From Methanolobus profundi (GTDB taxonomy: Archaea > Halobacteriota > Methanosarcinia > Methanosarcinales > Methanosarcinaceae): a DNA stretch of 64,000 nt. The notes under the pieces were generated by a model that worked only from the letters and a program-made list of their open reading frames with translations, was not told the origin of the DNA and searched no databases. The stretch lies in NCBI RefSeq assembly GCF_900114835.1, contig NZ_FOUJ01000002.1, forward strand, positions 266,374-330,373, in the 5' to 3' direction. Position numbers and translations under genes: made by a program. Below, one piece after another: positions 38,285 to 57,285 of this stretch (the stretch's first letter is position 1; every line of letters begins with the position of its first letter).

Positions 38285-39469
38285 ATGTCGATGACAATAG
38301 GACTTGCAGGGAAACCTAACGCAGGGAAATCCACATTCTTTAAGGCTGCAACACTTGCAGACGTTGAAATTGCTAATTATCCATTCACAACCATCCATGC
38401 AAACAAAGGAGTCACCTACGTAAAGTCAGAATGCCCGTGTGTCAGCCGTGACAAGCGCTGTGGCAACTGTTCAGATGGCATACGTTACGTTCCTATCGAG
38501 CTCATAGATGTTGCAGGACTGGTACCTGATGCGCACCAGGGGCGCGGACTTGGTAACACCTTCCTCGATGATCTTCGTCAGGCACAGGCCATCATTCACG
38601 TCATAGACGCATCCGGTGGAACAGATATCGAAGGGAATCCTGTAGATATCGGAGACCATGACCCACTCGGAGACATCGATTTCCTCAACCACGAACTTAC
38701 CATGTGGATCCATAGTATTATAATGAGGAACTGGACAAAACTGTCACGCAAGATACAGGCAGAAGGACTTAACCTCGAGCATATACTAGCAGACCAGCTC
38801 ATGGGAGCAGGAGTTAACGAGCAACACATCAGTGAAGCACTCAACGAATGCAAACTTGACAGGAACCACCTCTCCACATGGAGCGAAGAAGACATAGTCC
38901 ACTTCTGTGACGTTATCCGCTCCCTCAGCAAACCAATGATCATCGCCGCTAACAAGATGGACGTGGCACCACCGGAGAACGTCAGCAATCTCCAGGCACT
39001 TGAGCAGATGGTCGTGCCCACAAGCGCAGCCGCAGAACTTGTCCTGAGATCAGCATCAAAAGGACAGGCTATCAGCTACGAGCCAGGGGACAAGGACTTC
39101 ACAATAATCTCAGAAAAGCTCAGCCCTGCCCAGAAGAAAGGACTTGAGAACGTACGCAGCCTGATACAGAAGACCGAAGGTACAGGTATCCAGGAATGTA
39201 TAAACAGTGCCGTATTCGAGCTTCTGGACCTTATAATCGTCTATCCGGTAGAAGATGAAGGCAAGTGGACCGACAAGAACGGCCGCATGCTCCCTGATGC
39301 ATTCCTCATGAAAAAAGGCTCCAATCCACACGACCTTGCATACAAGGTACACTCAGATATTGGAGACCGTTTCCTCTATGCAGTTGACGCAAAGACAAAG
39401 ATGCGCCTTGGGGAGAAGCACGAGCTCAAAGACGGAGACGTTGTGAAGATAGTATCCACAGCAAAATAA
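38285..39469 (+). CDS. OBG-type GTPase with C-terminal TGS domain (Ygr210/MJ1332-like)
   Basis: Translation-associated P-loop GTPase of 394 residues. Seen: Walker A GKPNAGKST at residues 9-17, switch region YPFTTIHANKGV near 34-45, DVAGLVPDAHQGRGLGN (G3) near 78-94, and NKMD (G4) near 222, which points to GTP rather than the ATP preference of YchF. A Cys cluster CPCVSRDKRCGNC interrupts the G domain near 50-62. The final 70 residues form the TGS domain. Such proteins associate with ribosomes. The next gene follows 29 nt later on the same strand. Confidence 0.9.
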   Translation: MSMTIGLAGKPNAGKSTFFKAATLADVEIANYPFTTIHANKGVTYVKSECPCVSRDKRCGNCSDGIRYVPIELIDVAGLVPDAHQGRGLGNTFLDDLRQAQAIIHVIDASGGTDIEGNPVDIGDHDPLGDIDFLNHELTMWIHSIIMRNWTKLSRKIQAEGLNLEHILADQLMGAGVNEQHISEALNECKLDRNHLSTWSEEDIVHFCDVIRSLSKPMIIAANKMDVAPPENVSNLQALEQMVVPTSAAAELVLRSASKGQAISYEPGDKDFTIISEKLSPAQKKGLENVRSLIQKTEGTGIQECINSAVFELLDLIIVYPVEDEGKWTDKNGRMLPDAFLMKKGSNPHDLAYKVHSDIGDRFLYAVDAKTKMRLGEKHELKDGDVVKIVSTAK

Positions 39470-39498: not shown

Positions 39499-40158
39499 AT
39501 GAGCTTTGTCACATCCCTCTATGAGAAACACCTGCTGCAGCAGATAAAGAAATATCCCAGCCCGGAACACATGTCACTTGTGATATCCGAAGCTGACCTG
39601 CTGCAAAAGGGCGGGCTCAAAAAGCTCAGGGATTACATACTCTGGTGCAAGCAGCTCAATGTCAAGATCGTTAGTATCTACGTTGATGTCCTTGACACCG
39701 AAAAACCACTTCGTTCACAAATGATAGCACAGCTTGCCGGACAGCTTAACGATATACTGCAAAGAACACCTGAACAGATCGGCTACGATATATTCGGCGA
39801 GAATGGTGAACCCTGCTGCAAACGAAAAGGGAATGGATTTCAGGTCTATGTATCCGTAGGATTTGGTGGGCGTGAAGAGGTCACAAAAGCAGTAAAGGAC
39901 ATACTGCAAAAGGTGAAGGAAGGCACCATGAGACCTGAAGATATTGATGAGAATGCCATCGAATCCCGCCTTGTGGTCAAACACGAGCCAGACGTCTTCA
40001 TCCGTTCAGGAGGAAGACATCTCTCCGATTTCCTGATATGGCAATCCATATACTCTGAATACTACTTCACAGATGTCAACTGGCATGAAGTAAGAAAACT
40101 CGACCTGCTCAGGATAATAAGGGACTTCCAGAAACGTCAGAGACGATTTGGAAAATAA
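39499..40158 (+). CDS. Cis-prenyltransferase-like subunit lacking the catalytic Asp motif
   Basis: Homologue of undecaprenyl/dolichyl diphosphate synthases (219 residues). The C-terminal half is clear: VSVGFGGREEV near 118-128, EPDVFIRSGGRHLSDFLIWQ at 163-182 and SIYSEYYFTDVNW at 183-195, ending in RRFG (residues 215-218), the RxG motif used by cis-prenyltransferases. At the N-terminus, where catalytic subunits read MDGNRRWA, the line is EHMSLVISEADLLQKGG: the catalytic Asp and Arg are absent. This is the NgBR/Nus1 pattern, so it is probably the non-catalytic partner in a heteromeric enzyme making the lipid carrier for S-layer glycosylation. Archaeal heteromers of this kind have been described. 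No catalytic partner is in the window. Confidence 0.82.
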   Translation: MSFVTSLYEKHLLQQIKKYPSPEHMSLVISEADLLQKGGLKKLRDYILWCKQLNVKIVSIYVDVLDTEKPLRSQMIAQLAGQLNDILQRTPEQIGYDIFGENGEPCCKRKGNGFQVYVSVGFGGREEVTKAVKDILQKVKEGTMRPEDIDENAIESRLVVKHEPDVFIRSGGRHLSDFLIWQSIYSEYYFTDVNWHEVRKLDLLRIIRDFQKRQRRFGK

Positions 40159-40164
40159 CACTTA

Positions 40165-40590
40165 TCAGATATCCTTGCCCATCACAATGGCATTGTCATC
40201 TAAATAATAGCCGTCTACTTTTCCCTCGACCACAAAACCATTATTGGAATAGAAAAGCTGGGCACTCACATTCTTTTCTCTTACCTCAAGTGTCATCCTG
40301 TTGAAACCATATAGTCTCACAAGATCGATACACCATTCAAGCAGCTTGCTGGCAATTCCCTGCCTCCTGTGATCGCGGTGAACAGCAATGCTCTGGAGAT
40401 GAGCTGTTCTTTTATCCTCAGAAGAAGCGACTATGGCATAACCAAGCACCTTATCCTCTTCATAGACAAGGAATCCCGGATTGCTAAGGTGTGCCTTGAA
40501 AAGAAAATCAGGCCATGGAACCTCAAAAGAACAATTCTCTATCTCAACGATATCAGAGATATCCGATTCCAGCGCTCTTCTGATGCTCAT
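40165..40590 (-). CDS. rimI: N-terminal acetyltransferase RimI-like (GNAT)
   Basis: Transfers acetyl from acetyl-CoA to protein N-termini or other amines. 141 residues from ATG 40590 (protein MSIRRALESDI...). Seen: motif A LQSIAVHRDHRRQGIASKLL with the CoA-binding RRQGIA loop, and motif B NVSAQLFYSNNGFVVEGKVD near the end. In archaea this family acetylates many N-termini, like Ard1/NAA10. The frame opens 9 nt earlier at TTG. It is divergent from the zinc-ribbon gene. Confidence 0.88.
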   Translation of the reverse strand: MSIRRALESDISDIVEIENCSFEVPWPDFLFKAHLSNPGFLVYEEDKVLGYAIVASSEDKRTAHLQSIAVHRDHRRQGIASKLLEWCIDLVRLYGFNRMTLEVREKNVSAQLFYSNNGFVVEGKVDGYYLDDNAIVMGKDI

Positions 40591-40663
40591 GTTCTCCAAC
40601 CAGTTCTCCTGTCAATTATCAGTGAGAGTTACTATTTATATGATACATACTAAAAAGTTACCG

Positions 40664-46701: not shown

Positions 46702-46739
46702 AAAAAATAAAAAAGAAATGAAGGTTTTAAACCTTCATT
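46702..46739 (-). terminator. Terminator overlapping the stop of the surface-protein gene
   Basis: AATGAAGG and CCTTCATT arms with a TTTAAAA loop (near-palindrome), then TTTCTTTTTTATTTTTTG on the minus strand. The hairpin includes the stop codon. Confidence 0.7.
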
Positions 46740-49700
46740 CATTCCTGTTCTTTGGACGCAACAAAGCTGCTACCAGAGAAACACCAAGAATTCCGAATAT
46801 CATTTCAAATCCTGGTGTGTCAGGTGTTTCTTCTTCCACAGGCATTTCATCAGTATCATCTGCCATCTCACCTGTACCTGTCGTACTATCCTCTGAGGTT
46901 ACATAGGTCTCTTCGCTGTCCGAACGGGTGCTTATTGCAAATGTAGAGAATCCCGGTGTCTTAGCAACATAGTACACGTATTCACCATCATCATCTGAAA
47001 CAGATGTCTCAAGCTGCTCCCAGGCGCTTCCTGCATAGTGAGAAAGTACGACATCGTCTGTTGATATTCCATTCTGCTCAAGCCATGTCTTCTCTACCTT
47101 GAAGGTAATGGTGGCTCCTGCAATGTTCTCAGCATCGATATCACTTACTTCGATGTTCAGGTAACTGTGAACCTTGCCCGGTGCAGCGCCCGGAATATTG
47201 TCAGGCTTTGAGTCAAGTTTCTGTACGGATACGGATATCTTTGCAACTTCCACATCGGACTCCACTTCAACTCCTGTAACCTCTGTCTTTGTCAGCTCCA
47301 CAGAGATGACCTTCACAGGTTCGCCAAGTATCTTGCCGGTAGATTCCTGAGTTACGATCTTAGCTCCCTCATAAGTGCTTCTGGCATTATTGAGGATCTC
47401 CCGGGTCACAGATGAACCACCGTCAGAACTGCTTCCTGGATCGGAGCTTGGTGCTGAAGGACCGGTGTATGAAAGACTTGTGTTGGTGACCGCGTTACTT
47501 GCATTATCCGTTGCGATAACTGTCACGGTATTTGCTCCATAAGCTGCGGATATGGTTCCGTTCCATATGTCACTGCCCTGATCCACAAGAGATGTTCCGG
47601 CTGCAGTAACGCTCTTTATGCCGCTTCCACTGTCAGATACATTCACAGTGACCTCGATACTTTCGCCATATGATGTCGGTGTCTCGGTGCTAAGTGTCAG
47701 ATTATTGAATACAGGGTCGGTGTTGTCAATTATCACTTCAAAAGTTGCTGATGCACTGTTATTGACATTACCTGCCTGATCCGTTGCTGTCACATTGAGC
47801 AGATATGTACCATCGGCTCCTGCGATCACAACACTGTCATTCACCCAGTAGTCGGTGGATGAGACACGATCCAGTATCACAGAGCTATATGCACTTATGC
47901 TGCTCACATTATCGACCGACATGGCAGTGGAAACACCTGAAAGACTGCCGTCAGAGACTGTTGCATTGAGTGTCAGGACAGAGCCATTGTTAACTGCTGT
48001 ATAACCTGTCGGATATTCGGTCTGAGCAGCGGAGATCAATGGTTCGGTGTTGTCTATCTTGATAGTAAGGTTCACCGAGTCATTCACATTGCTTGCATTG
48101 TCATAGGCCACTACAGTAAGGTTCAGCGTTCCCTCTGCAGATGCTGCAATTATGAGCGAGTCATTGAACCAGTAGTTACCTCCTGCATGTTCAAGGATCG
48201 CCAGTGATGAAGCATTCACAAGAGAAACATTGACAGTAGCATTATTGACACCTGTTCCGGAATCGATTATAGTAGCATTGAGGTCAAGGGTGTCACCATC
48301 CATGAACCACTGGGAACCCGTAGGGGAAACCGGAGTTACAGTTGGTCCTACATTGTCGATAACAACTGATATGGAACCACTGGAGTTCATATTGGTTGCG
48401 TTATCGGATGCCCTTACTGGCAGGATGACCGTTCCTGAACTCGAATTGTTAACGATAACAGAGAGTGTATAGTCATCGCCACCTGCTGCAGTGAAGGATT
48501 CCCAGGAAAGGGAACTGTTAAGACCCGATGCATTGACCTCTACAGAAGAAGCATTGATACCGGAGAGGACATCGGTAACAGTTACGTTCAGTACAACAGT
48601 ACCGCCATCACTGACGGCATTCATGCCAGCCTGATAAACAGCTTCAGTATTGGTGAACACTGGAGCAGTGTTGTCTACTTTCACTGAAAGATTGACACTG
48701 GTATTCACATTACTGAGATTGTCAGAGGAACTGACAGTGAGGTTGATAGTCCCTTCGTTTGATGTCAAGATCGTAAGTGAGCTGTTGGTCCAGTAATCAC
48801 CAACGGAATTGGTCAGGATCGCAGTACTGGTGGCTGAAGCATCAGAGGTATCCACAGTTACACTACCCATTCCGGCAGAGCCAACATCGGTACTGGATAC
48901 GTTGATGTCAAGGGTAGAGCCATTGATAAGCCAACTGGTACCATCAGGAGAGATACCAGTAACCAGTGGTGCGGAATTATCAAGGACCACTGAAATGCTC
49001 TGACTGGTATTGACATTGGTGGCATTGTCAGAGACACTTACCGGCAGAAGAACAGTTCCGGTGCTGGAATTGTCAACGAGAACAGATAATGTGAAGTTGT
49101 CACCACCTGCTGAACTGAGTGTTTCCCACGTTAGGGAACTGTTAAGACCGGAGACATTGACCTGCACTGAAGAGGAATTGATACCTGAAAGGGTTTCAGT
49201 TGCACTGAGGTTCAAAAGAACTGTGCCACCACTGTTTACTACGGAATAACCGGACGGATAAGAAGCAACTGCATTGCTCACTATAGGAGCGGTGTTGTCG
49301 ATCTTAATTGTAAGGTTCACCGAGCTGTTCAGGTTGCTTGCGTTGTCATAGGCCAGCACAGGAAGACCAATAGTTCCTTCGGAAGATGCAACGATCGTAA
49401 GTGAACTATTGACCCAGCTGTCACCTGCAATGTTGTCAAGTATTGCAAATGTCGAGGCATTCACAGCAGAGACATTCACAGTAGCATTCTTTACACCTGA
49501 TGTTAGATCGTTAATGGTGGCGTTCAGGTCAAGTGTATCACCATCCCTGAACCATTGGGAGCCTATTGGGGAAACTGCGACCACGGATGGACCGTCATTG
49601 TCGATGACAACTGATATGGAACCACTGGAGTTCATATTGGTTGCGTTATCGGATGCCCTTACTGGTAGGATGACTGTCCCTGAACTTGAATTGTTAACGA

Positions 49701-51966
49701 TAACAGAGAGTGTGTAGTCATCACCACCTGCTGCAGTGAAAGATTCCCAATCAAGTGAACTGTTAAGACCGGAAGCATTGACCTCTAAAGAAGAAGCATT
49801 GATGCCGGAGAGGACATCGGTCACAGTTACGTTCAGTACAACAGTACCGCCATCACTGACAGCATTCATACCAGCCTGATAAACAGCTTCGGTATTGGTG
49901 AATACTGGAGCAGTATTGTCTACCTGCACTGAAAGATTGACACTGGTATTCACATTACTGAGATTATCAGAGGAACTGACAGTGAGGTTGATAGTTCCTT
50001 CGTTTGATGTCAAGATCGTAAGTGAGCTGTTGGTCCAGTAATCACCAACGGAATTGGTCAGGATCGCAGTACTGGTGGCTGAAGCATCAGAGGTATCCAC
50101 AGTCACACTGCCCATTCCAGCAGAACCGACATCGGTACTGGATACGTTGATGTCAAGGGTAGAGCCATTGATAAGCCAGCCGGTACCATCAGGAGAGATA
50201 CCGATGACCAGTGGTGCGGAATTATCAAGGACCACTGAGATTGTCTGGCTGGTGTTGACATTGGTAGCATTGTCAGAGACACTTACCGGCACAAGAACAG
50301 TTCCGGTGCTGGAATTGTCAACGATAACAGATAATGTGAAGTTGTCACCACCTGCTGAGCTGAGTGTTTCCCATGTGAGGGAACTGTTAAGACCGGAGAC
50401 ATTGACCTGCACCGAAGAAGCGTTCAAACCAGATGTTGCATCGGTTGCTGTGAGGTTCAAAAGAACTGTACCACCACTGTTAACTGCGGAATAACCGGAT
50501 GGATAAGAGACGACTGCATTGTTCACTACCGGAGCGGTGTTGTCAACATTCAATGTCAGATTTACACTATTATTAGTATTGCTTGCATTGTCTACGGCAG
50601 TTACCACCAGATCAATGTTTCCTTCTGAAGGAGCAGCAACGGTAAGTGAACTGTTGGTCCAGTAGTCACCGGCAGAATTGGTAAGTATAGCTGTTGCACT
50701 TGCATTGACAGATGACACATCAACTGTCACACTGCTTATGTTACTTGCATTTGAACCGCCGAGGTCAACCGCACTGACATTCAAAGTTATCGCAGAACCG
50801 TTGTTGACCCATGGGTCCGAGATAACCGGGGATATTGCAGTAACAGCAGGTGCCACATTGTCCACCCATACATTGAAACTGACACTGTTGTTCACATTGC
50901 TCACGTTATCTGTGGCCGTAACAGGCACAGCAACGGAACCCTGTGTACTGGTACCTATAATAATCGTATCATTTATCCAGTATCCGCCAGATGATGATAG
51001 GGATACCGAACCTAAAGAGTCATTCACATTGCTTCCATCGACAGAGACAGAGAGAATACCAGAGCCTGAGCCATCATCTACAGTGGCGTTCAAAGTGATA
51101 GTTGTCCCATTGTTGACCCATGAAGGAGTATCTCCGAATGTGTTCAACGTGACCGTTGGTTCGGTGTTATCTACCCAGACAGTAAAATTGACACTGTTGT
51201 TCACATGGGATACATTATCATATGAAGTGATAGGCAGGTCATGCTGACCATCGGCAGCATTTACCATGAATGAACTGTTGATCCAGTAATTGGAGAATAG
51301 GTCAAGGTTGATCACTCCGGCACTTGCATTAACAGAAGTGATGTCAACAGTTGCATTCTTGACACCTGAGGCTGAATCGGTAATTGATGCATTGAAATAA
51401 AGAGTTGTACCGTTCTTTACCCACGTCTGAGGAGATTGTGTGTAATTCACGGCAGTTACTGATGGTTCACCCTCGATGGTCAGATAGATAGTTACATCGG
51501 ATGGTGTTGCACTTGTATTAAGATTGAAGGAATAGGTCGTGTTGGTAAGGGAACCCCACGTGTATGTAAGGTTCGCACCATGTAAGTTCATGGAAAAATC
51601 AATTCCTGCAGGAACTATTATGTTGCTCCCGTTAGAGATCGTCAATACGTTGCCACTGAAAGACACATTATCAGCAGAGACGTTCTCAAAACCTGTAAGA
51701 TCATAATTGGAGGCACTTGAATTATCAAAAGTTATGCCTGTTGGGAAAGTTAGATTCAATGATGTGATAGACACACTGTCATTTGCAGTGAAGTTCAAAG
51801 ACGAGTTTATCGAATGTTCTGTTATGTTCGAACCATAGTCTGTCTTTACACCATTCCCGGAAATGGCTATAGCACCACTTGCCGAGATAACTGAAAATAA
51901 AACAATAATTAGAACTATTCCTAATAGTAAGAACAGTTTATTGCGCTTAGCTTGCTCTTTTATCAA
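46735..51966 (-). CDS. Giant Ig-repeat surface protein with PGF-CTERM sorting signal
   Basis: Predicted S-layer-associated exoprotein of 1743 residues. I chose TTG 51966, with GGAGAGGG 5 nt upstream; the frame opens at TTG 51984. Order: signal helix (LFLLLGIVLIIVLFSVISAS), a short first domain, then about a dozen Ig/cadherin-like modules of 100 residues each, each closed by a (V/I/L)DN-x-xP boundary (VDNTEP, VDNVAP, VDNTAP, LDNSAP, IDNDGP and so on). A PGF-pre-PGF domain covers about 1525-1690. The end is TPGF, a hydrophobic helix and RPKNRNE, the PGF-CTERM signal cut by archaeosortase A. NxS/T sequons are extremely dense. A 1245-bp direct duplication lies inside (48045-50534). Confidence 0.93.
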   Translation of the reverse strand: MIKEQAKRNKLFLLLGIVLIIVLFSVISASGAIAISGNGVKTDYGSNITEHSINSSLNFTANDSVSITSLNLTFPTGITFDNSSASNYDLTGFENVSADNVSFSGNVLTISNGSNIIVPAGIDFSMNLHGANLTYTWGSLTNTTYSFNLNTSATPSDVTIYLTIEGEPSVTAVNYTQSPQTWVKNGTTLYFNASITDSASGVKNATVDITSVNASAGVINLDLFSNYWINSSFMVNAADGQHDLPITSYDNVSHVNNSVNFTVWVDNTEPTVTLNTFGDTPSWVNNGTTITLNATVDDGSGSGILSVSVDGSNVNDSLGSVSLSSSGGYWINDTIIIGTSTQGSVAVPVTATDNVSNVNNSVSFNVWVDNVAPAVTAISPVISDPWVNNGSAITLNVSAVDLGGSNASNISSVTVDVSSVNASATAILTNSAGDYWTNSSLTVAAPSEGNIDLVVTAVDNASNTNNSVNLTLNVDNTAPVVNNAVVSYPSGYSAVNSGGTVLLNLTATDATSGLNASSVQVNVSGLNSSLTWETLSSAGGDNFTLSVIVDNSSTGTVLVPVSVSDNATNVNTSQTISVVLDNSAPLVIGISPDGTGWLINGSTLDINVSSTDVGSAGMGSVTVDTSDASATSTAILTNSVGDYWTNSSLTILTSNEGTINLTVSSSDNLSNVNTSVNLSVQVDNTAPVFTNTEAVYQAGMNAVSDGGTVVLNVTVTDVLSGINASSLEVNASGLNSSLDWESFTAAGGDDYTLSVIVNNSSSGTVILPVRASDNATNMNSSGSISVVIDNDGPSVVAVSPIGSQWFRDGDTLDLNATINDLTSGVKNATVNVSAVNASTFAILDNIAGDSWVNSSLTIVASSEGTIGLPVLAYDNASNLNSSVNLTIKIDNTAPIVSNAVASYPSGYSVVNSGGTVLLNLSATETLSGINSSSVQVNVSGLNSSLTWETLSSAGGDNFTLSVLVDNSSTGTVLLPVSVSDNATNVNTSQSISVVLDNSAPLVTGISPDGTSWLINGSTLDINVSSTDVGSAGMGSVTVDTSDASATSTAILTNSVGDYWTNSSLTILTSNEGTINLTVSSSDNLSNVNTSVNLSVKVDNTAPVFTNTEAVYQAGMNAVSDGGTVVLNVTVTDVLSGINASSVEVNASGLNSSLSWESFTAAGGDDYTLSVIVNNSSSGTVILPVRASDNATNMNSSGSISVVIDNVGPTVTPVSPTGSQWFMDGDTLDLNATIIDSGTGVNNATVNVSLVNASSLAILEHAGGNYWFNDSLIIAASAEGTLNLTVVAYDNASNVNDSVNLTIKIDNTEPLISAAQTEYPTGYTAVNNGSVLTLNATVSDGSLSGVSTAMSVDNVSSISAYSSVILDRVSSTDYWVNDSVVIAGADGTYLLNVTATDQAGNVNNSASATFEVIIDNTDPVFNNLTLSTETPTSYGESIEVTVNVSDSGSGIKSVTAAGTSLVDQGSDIWNGTISAAYGANTVTVIATDNASNAVTNTSLSYTGPSAPSSDPGSSSDGGSSVTREILNNARSTYEGAKIVTQESTGKILGEPVKVISVELTKTEVTGVEVESDVEVAKISVSVQKLDSKPDNIPGAAPGKVHSYLNIEVSDIDAENIAGATITFKVEKTWLEQNGISTDDVVLSHYAGSAWEQLETSVSDDDGEYVYYVAKTPGFSTFAISTRSDSEETYVTSEDSTTGTGEMADDTDEMPVEEETPDTPGFEMIFGILGVSLVAALLRPKNRNE
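48045..50534. repeat. Tandem direct repeat, period 1245 bp, inside the surface-protein gene
   Basis: Two copies (about 48045-49289 and 49290-50534; ends approximate) encode the same block of four Ig modules, 415 codons each. Long stretches are identical, for example 48860-48920 against 50105-50165. Local differences (IDNDGPSVVAVSP against IDNVGPTVTPVSP) show that the copies have begun to diverge. Confidence 0.85.
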
Positions 51967-51984
51967 ATATACCCTCTCCGTCAA

Positions 51985-56304: not shown

Positions 56305-56631
56305 ATGATAAATAATATTGTTGCGAATATGAATTCTGCTAAAAAAGAAAATCAGATAGATGAATATAAGCAGACTATTCTTCCGATACTCATTCGAAAT
56401 GATGTTGATAAAGCAGGTATCTTTGGCTCGTTTGCAAGGAACGAAGCAAGAGATGACAGTGACATCGATATTCTTGTAAGCTTCAAGAGCAGGAAAAGCC
56501 TTTTTGACCTTTCCAGATTAGAGATGGAACTTGAACGGGAGTCTCACAGGAAAATTGAGGTCATCACCTATGATTCCATAAGCCCTCTTATACGGGATAG
56601 AATCCTGAAAGAAGAAGTGAAGATACTATGA
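56305..56631 (+). CDS. MNT-type nucleotidyltransferase, unpaired copy
   Basis: 108 residues. The polymerase-beta-type active site is GIFGSFARNEARDDSDIDIL: the GSF motif, then DxD. The C-terminal SHRKIEVITYDSISPLIRDR is typical of MNT. Such proteins are usually the antitoxin next to a HEPN toxin, but this one points toward the HEPN gene from the other strand, and a second MNT (56977) sits in the usual place. It overlaps the 3' end of hepT by 6 nt. Confidence 0.85.
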   Translation: MINNIVANMNSAKKENQIDEYKQTILPILIRNDVDKAGIFGSFARNEARDDSDIDILVSFKSRKSLFDLSRLEMELERESHRKIEVITYDSISPLIRDRILKEEVKIL

Positions 56632-56967
56632 ATTCAATTCCCTCAATAAATCCTCTATTACAGGTTTTGCTTCGGGAATACCTTCTTTCACACTAAGCCA
56701 TACAACTTCGAGATTTACACCAAAATAAGCATGTATCAACTTGTCCCTGATGCCTGCCAGATCTTTCCACGGGACAGTAGGATACTGTTGTCTGATATCA
56801 TCTGGAACGTTCTTTGCTGCCTCGCCGATAATTTCCAATGCTCTTATAACAGCATACTGTGTCTTTGTGTCCTCAATAAAATCATCGAATGAGTAGTTAC
56901 TTACAAAGTCTTCCGCTGATTCCATGGCATTATAGATATCCTGCACATAGTCCTTTATGTCCCGAAT
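56626..56967 (-). CDS. hepT: HepT-like HEPN protein (toxin of an MNT/HEPN pair)
   Basis: Helical HEPN protein of about 113 residues (DUF86). It shows YAVIRALEIIGEAAKNVPDD and the active-site RDKLIHAYFGV (RxxxxH followed by AYF). In the MntA-HepT system this RNase-like toxin is neutralised by adenylylation of the tyrosine. The next MNT gene is upstream, 9 nt away, in canonical order. The first GTG (56946) leaves off the usual N-terminal RDIKDYVQDI; an ATT at 56967 lies 5 nt after GAGGTG and restores it, so I end the CDS there. GTG 56946 with AAAGGA is the alternative. Confidence 0.8.
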   Translation of the reverse strand: MRDIKDYVQDIYNAMESAEDFVSNYSFDDFIEDTKTQYAVIRALEIIGEAAKNVPDDIRQQYPTVPWKDLAGIRDKLIHAYFGVNLEVVWLSVKEGIPEAKPVIEDLLRELNS

Positions 56968-56976
56968 TCTAACACC

Positions 56977-57285
56977 TCAAACAGCTTCAACTTCATTCAG
57001 TATGTACTTCCCAATATTCGGCTTTAGTGCATCTTTCATTACAAGATCGACCTTAATTCCAAGAGAATCAGAAAGATAGTTCTCAAGATGAACGAACCTG
57101 AAAATAGTAGGAGTTTTGCTAAATTCTACCAGCACATCAAGGTCACTTTCCAGAGTGTGCTCTCCACGTACATAGGAACCGAATAGTCCTATGTAACTGA
57201 CATTGTATTCTGCTTCCAGCTCTGGCATTATCTCATGGAGCTTTTTCCTGTAAGTATCAATATCTTTTTTGGCTGGCATTTTCAT
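56977..57285 (-). CDS. mntA: MntA-like nucleotidyltransferase antitoxin
   Basis: 102 residues with the active site GLFGSYVRGEHTLESDLDVL (GSY...DxD), then FSKTPTIFRFVHLENYL and the C-terminal helix ILNEVEAV. It probably adenylylates HepT, encoded just downstream on the same strand. This is the complete mntA-hepT toxin-antitoxin pair, with an extra MNT gene facing it from the plus strand. Confidence 0.85.
   Translation of the reverse strand: MKMPAKKDIDTYRKKLHEIMPELEAEYNVSYIGLFGSYVRGEHTLESDLDVLVEFSKTPTIFRFVHLENYLSDSLGIKVDLVMKDALKPNIGKYILNEVEAV

Follow-up and report, generated by a model that had tools for sequence, protein, structure and literature searches.

A predicted NgBR-like, non-catalytic cis-prenyltransferase subunit in Methanolobus profundi and its probable DGNRR-bearing partner

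Introduction

Can a protein of the cis-prenyltransferase family that has lost its catalytic motif still take part in making the lipid carrier for archaeal glycans? The gene at position 39499 of the window (the whole 64,000 nucleotide stretch of the Methanolobus profundi genome that was analysed) raises this question. A first-pass annotation of the sequence had proposed a non-catalytic subunit with the layout of eukaryotic NgBR/Nus1, had pointed to heteromeric precedents in Archaeoglobus and Methanosarcina, and had suggested that the carrier lipid would serve the glycosylation of a protein encoded at 46735.

The Methanosarcina precedent is real. MM_0618 and MM_1083 of Methanosarcina mazei form a heteromeric cis-prenyltransferase with C45-50 products, likely for glycosyl carrier lipid, and MM_0014 is a separate homodimeric paralogue (PMC8131916, which cites Emi et al. 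2019 for the heteromer). A Methanosarcina acetivorans enzyme is listed as belonging to a heteromeric complex, that of Sulfolobus acidocaldarius as homodimeric (PMC6921004). Human NgBR ends in R290-L291-G292-K293; the carboxylate of K293 contacts R37 and R85 of DHDDS, and the backbone amides of L291 and G292 bind phosphate in the acceptor site (PMC7573591). Yeast Nus1, with an Asn in the RxG motif, is an exception (PMC7573591, PMC7839719).

Results

The window protein lacks the catalytic loop and keeps the RxG end

The features of the gene are as follows.

39499..40158, plus strand: predicted NgBR-like non-catalytic cis-prenyltransferase subunit (ATG start, 219 aa)
39586..39600, plus strand: degenerated catalytic DGN.R loop (residues 30-34, SEADL), placed by column alignment to E. 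coli UppS D26-R30; the loop is contracted, with a Pro-Trp spacing of 27 versus 38
40003..40044, plus strand: retained RSGGRHLSDFLIWQ region (residues 169-182), placed by alignment and one residue shorter than in catalytic enzymes
40144..40152, plus strand: C-terminal R-F-G (RxG, residues 216-218), with one further residue before the stop; its predicted role is to complete the active site of a partner

Alignment to E. coli UppS confirmed that the protein is without DGNRR and retains the RSGGRHLSDFLIWQ region and the C-terminal RxG, as first annotated. M25-D26-G27-N28-G29-R30 of UppS become I-S-E-A-D-L, so that neither the catalytic Asp nor the DGN.R loop remains, and the equivalents of D26, N28, R30, H43, N74 and R77 (E. 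coli numbering) are replaced or deleted. R194 and the Trp-Gln-Glu core are retained, R200 is replaced by H, and the chain ends in RRFGK. The PF01255 profile scores 108.7 bits against a cut-off of 27 (Pfam), over residues 110-218 only. By inspection, some 20 residues precede the cis-prenyltransferase core; they include a charged helix (residues 3-17) and no transmembrane anchor. An AlphaFold2 model built with 16 homologues (pLDDT 83.5) has the cis-prenyltransferase fold, and Foldseek matched it to Bacillus subtilis UppS and human DHDDS. Against known structures the best VIA hit had a Z-score of 16.8 (rmsd 3.3 over 197 residues), a comparison that does not single out NUS1: the 50 VIA rows hold one chain per entry, and the chain shown for the human complex is DHDDS, which makes them uninformative on NUS1.

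The source genome encodes one probable DGNRR partner

The source genome (3.1 Mb, 99.96% complete) holds exactly two PF01255 genes by profile search, the window gene and one encoding a DGNRR protein.

Contig C8 of the source genome (G000), match 56393-57070 (locus L001, 1396-2277), on a different contig from the window gene: DGNRR partner, 293 aa, about 246-246.9 bits

Thus, the canonical homologue that the first-pass annotation had proposed to look for exists as a single copy, and it lacks RxG. MDGNRR is intact and the whole PF01255 profile is matched (Pfam, score as above); where RxG would stand the chain continues with RMREKHQR, and a helical tail is predicted at its end. The partner model (pLDDT 74.3) also matches UppS and human DHDDS, and was used solely to note the C-terminal helices, a long one followed by a short one, since confidence is low near residues 214-238. 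The same search found no third paralogue of the MM_0014 type. The pair is therefore the only PF01255 cis-prenyltransferase of this Methanolobus.

Motif loss is reciprocal across the two classes

We compared 154 distinct NgBR-like sequences, 86 distinct partners, two MM_0014-type proteins and six bacterial UppS (from plasmid records). They include sequences from 100 survey genomes, with both subunits read in 73 of these and only one in 27. Classes were set by the presence of DGNRR and by profile scores, and RxG was not used for sorting. DGN.R occurs in 0/154 NgBR-like sequences, an absence that is partly by construction, even though 16/154 hold Asp in the D26 column; the RxG and tree results are free of this bias. 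No Arg is found at position 30 among the residues listed (150/154 sequences), the H43 column is a gap in 149/154, and the RSGG..LSDF region is one residue short of that in catalytic enzymes, with a gap at E198 in all 154. The loop from the conserved Pro to the Trp has a median of 27 residues in the 153 usable NgBR-like sequences (27 in 119, range 18-36) versus 38 in 86/86 partners.

The RxG arginine is present in 152/154 NgBR-like sequences, with K in the other two, and RxG stands in register in none of the 86 partners versus 6/6 bacterial enzymes. All 86 partners keep D26, N28, R30, S71, N74, R77, R194, R200 and S202 (E. coli numbering); the six bacterial UppS carry DGN.R and RxG together on one chain. 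By alignment, NgBR-like and partner proteins have degenerated reciprocally in their active-site motifs. The NgBR/Nus1-like layout noted in the first annotation matches human NgBR (PMC7573591) down to the chain end, which lies exactly one residue past RxG in 154/154 archaeal proteins, an ending not unique to the NgBR-like class, since the MM_0014 type and two single-chain enzymes of actinobacteria share it. Partners have between 0 and 59 residues after the RxG column, and a DHDDS-like C-terminal tail is thus not universal among them.

Several sequences depart from the common pattern. Methanohalobium evestigatum (G061; L243, L244, L259) has an extra DGNRR-type catalytic subunit gene on plasmid pMETEV01 beside its chromosomal copy, and its NgBR-like protein ends in RKFGK, with K for R in RxG; locus L090 has the same ending and L036 has RKYGK. 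In family f15 (G049, G059; L254, L255) the NgBR-like frames span only 164-168 residues and retain the C-terminal RxG end, which would make them near-minimal helper subunits. The partners L227 (family f19) and L236 (family f25) end in ..DQRRRSG.. and ..DQRIRAGE, an RxG-like triplet out of register that may be due to chance.

The pair is close to universal in the sampled phylum

A search of 40 genomes with the window protein, its own included, found a match in all 40 and two matches in 39, the exception being G014, which is 70% complete. The match spans at least residues 24-219 in 39/40 genomes, with G014 again the miss, and other Methanolobus genomes show the same order of genes around it; the reading frame is therefore not a chance one. 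One same-genus genome in this search encodes a protein 84% identical to the window protein. A further contig search gave the best 80 of 400 confirmed matches, named as methanogens, ANME archaea or unspecified Euryarchaeota; among these 80, the Methanolobus loci are 59–72% identical.

Both subunits turned up in 116 of 120 evenly sampled genomes of the phylum, a one-to-one presence of the two genes. G123 (89% complete) has the partner only, and G046, G056 and G066, all of family f12 and 86–91% complete, have no PF01255 gene at an E-value of 0.01; the gap in f12 reflects either missing data or another route to the carrier lipid.

A quick tree of 104 sequences separated an NgBR-like clade (support 99) from a partner clade (77). 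The careful tree of 72 sequences, obtained by removing six rows (f15 and MM_0014-type) and thinning a further 26, gave supports of 100/99 and 100/98 respectively. The bacterial outgroup is split, and the position of the root is uncertain. A single duplication with division of labour, earlier than the radiation of the phylum, would explain these trees most simply.

Gene order differs between groups of loci

Two genes flank the window gene.

38285..39469, plus strand: YchF-related GTPase (PRK09602 subfamily), immediately preceding the NgBR-like gene on the same strand
40165..40599, minus strand: RimI-like acetyltransferase, a convergent neighbour 6 bases downstream (context only)

Among the best 80 of 400 matches, the YchF-related GTPase lies directly upstream in 49/49 loci of the group L053-L101; it was not found in the flanks (at most 3 kb, some shorter) of the other 31 loci, L102-L132, where a convergent DHDDS-like partner is the tail-to-tail neighbour in 12/31. 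In the phylum sample the subunit genes are at most 10 kb apart in 43/116 genomes from 14 families, and all 43 pairs are convergent; 35 lie within 1 kb, with match coordinates overlapping in some.

For genes that encode subunits of the same enzyme, a fixed tail-to-tail order is unusual. We set aside the idea that it is a sign of co-regulation, inheritance from one ancestral arrangement being simpler.

A candidate client of the pathway lies in the window

46735..51984, minus strand: 1749-aa repetitive protein rich in N-glycosylation sequons, a candidate client of the lipid-linked glycan pathway

This protein has 110 sequons versus 47.6 ± 6.0 (maximum 64) in 1000 shuffles. The source genome encodes one STT3/AglB oligosaccharyltransferase and one PAP2 phosphatase. 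It is plausible that the carrier lipid serves the glycosylation of the protein at 46735, as first suggested. The C-terminus of this protein ends in TPGFEMIFGILGVSLVAALLRPKNRNE, which we take to resemble a PGF-CTERM sorting signal.

Discussion

We consider it very likely that the window protein serves a heteromeric cis-prenyltransferase as its structural, non-catalytic subunit, that it pairs with the DGNRR protein of contig C8 and completes its active site, and that the product is about C45-50. By analogy with the M. mazei and human enzymes, the partner would bind Mg-pyrophosphate and house the sites for prenyl donor and acceptor as well as the product tunnel, and the window subunit would dock onto it by the dimer face usual in cis-prenyltransferases. 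The RFGK-COOH tail would then cross the interface to complete the active site of the partner. Starting from a short allylic diphosphate, such a complex would build a chain of roughly C45-50, from which would come the polyprenyl or dolichyl phosphate carrying N-glycans to the single AglB/STT3. Two points count against this reading: the partner could be partly active by itself, as human DHDDS alone is a weakly active homodimer (PMC6921004), and the two genes are unlinked in this genome.

Judged by sequence, the window protein is an orthologue of the characterized heteromeric kind and not a new kind. It shares the features of the M. mazei-type subunit, namely PF01255 homology, loss of DGN.R with retention of RxG, and a DGNRR partner without RxG. 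It falls in one clade with the Methanosarcina subunit, is 52% identical to it and has the same upstream GTPase, in a comparison made with Methanosarcina sequences rather than with the M. mazei gene. The 52% identical protein is that of Methanosarcina sp. MSH10X1 (G150), a member of the same methanogen family that has exactly three PF01255 genes, the same set as M. mazei: a partner type whose DGNRR protein is without RxG, an NgBR-like type and an MM_0014 type. The source Methanolobus genome differs in having no such third paralogue. The MM_0014 type (PDB 7caq) is also a PF01255 protein and occurs in some of the same genomes, but it has DGNRR, ends in ITLGG instead of RxG and is homodimeric, a pattern that the window protein does not show. 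These proteins (L253, L256) are a caution against taking the loss of RxG by itself as proof of heteromery, as they too are without it and MM_0014 forms a homodimer (PMC8131916). Homodimeric bacterial UppS has the same fold and its C-terminal half aligns with the window protein residue by residue, but it carries DGN.R and RxG in one chain; the window protein has RxG only, which is the NgBR motif pattern.

Three other explanations were considered. The loss of the catalytic loop and the poor conservation of the N-terminal half would suit a decaying pseudogene or a functionless paralogue of undecaprenyl diphosphate synthase. This we find scarcely credible, because the frame is open, 47 positions are invariant across 16 sequences of the order, the gene is kept in nearly all genomes sampled from the phylum (116/120), and both the RxG arginine (152/154) and the chain end (154/154) are held fixed. 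The fold, together with the retained R194 and Trp-Gln-Glu core, might instead point to a homomeric enzyme that works on its own and has an unusual metal site, but with the six residues from D26 to R77 listed above replaced or deleted this is very improbable. Emi et al. in 2019 reportedly found the M. mazei subunits nearly inactive singly, which also counts against it.

A regulatory or scaffolding protein of the same fold that acts outside the active site, perhaps together with the neighbouring YchF-related GTPase, is slightly less improbable but still unlikely. The GTPase is directly upstream and on the same strand throughout L053-L101, but the linkage is seen only in that group, and the DHDDS-like gene is the neighbour in 12 of the other loci; moreover, the motif that is retained is the active-site RxG, exactly what the partner has lost. 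We know of no functional link between the GTPase and the NgBR-like gene. All three explanations were set aside in favour of the non-catalytic subunit of a heteromeric enzyme.

The comparison with the human complex (PDB 6z1n, 6w2l) is close in motif layout, with DGNRR but no RxG on one subunit and RxG but no DGNRR on the other. The shortened Pro-Trp loop is also shared (25 residues in NUS1, counted on the alignment, versus 27 in archaea). In contrast, NUS1 has an N-terminal transmembrane anchor with no counterpart in the window protein, overall similarity is low (profile E about 7e-9), the IRSGG..DFLIWQ stretch is better kept in the window protein, and the expected product is shorter. Because the eukaryotic membrane anchor is absent, ‘NgBR-like’ denotes a manner of working and not membership of the eukaryotic NgBR subfamily.

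With a profile of the N-terminal half of 13 NgBR-like proteins, human DHDDS matched in the helix and strand that follow the loop (E 9e-5) and human NUS1 along a colinear stretch that starts at the first strand and takes in the shortened loop (E 2e-4); homodimeric enzymes ranked behind both (E 0.014 or worse). The N-terminal half of the window protein alone gave a weak, non-significant match to NUS1 (E 0.31). The NUS1 stretch scored 23 bits on the N-terminal NgBR-like model versus 9 on the partner model and 9 on the bacterial model, the last built from six sequences. In its shortened N-terminal loop the window protein is closer to human NUS1 than to any catalytic cis-prenyltransferase. Profile and loop length favour common descent of NgBR-like proteins and NUS1, but convergent loss of the same loop could look alike. 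We put forward only tentatively, as possible rather than probable, that the two-subunit enzyme was an archaeal invention already present in the phylum ancestor and that eukaryotes acquired both halves, the DGNRR clade giving rise to DHDDS and the RxG clade to NUS1/NgBR.

New here are the near-universal presence of the pair in the sampled phylum, the two well-supported clades and the tail-to-tail gene neighbours. Among open-licence papers, judged by titles, openings of abstracts and passages, we recognized no earlier report that the pair is widespread in archaea or that NUS1 is of archaeal origin. A split system that, to our knowledge, had been known in archaea from one biochemical study is thereby extended to nearly all genomes sampled from the phylum. 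The source Methanolobus appears to depend on the split cis-prenyltransferase as its sole such enzyme, and the pair is therefore probably essential for its surface glycoproteins. Mutations in human DHDDS and NgBR cause disease, and the archaeal pairs would offer small, anchor-free models of that complex and make the origin of the eukaryotic pair testable. If the proposed ancestry is true, the eukaryotic heteromeric dolichol synthase would be an inheritance and not a eukaryotic innovation.
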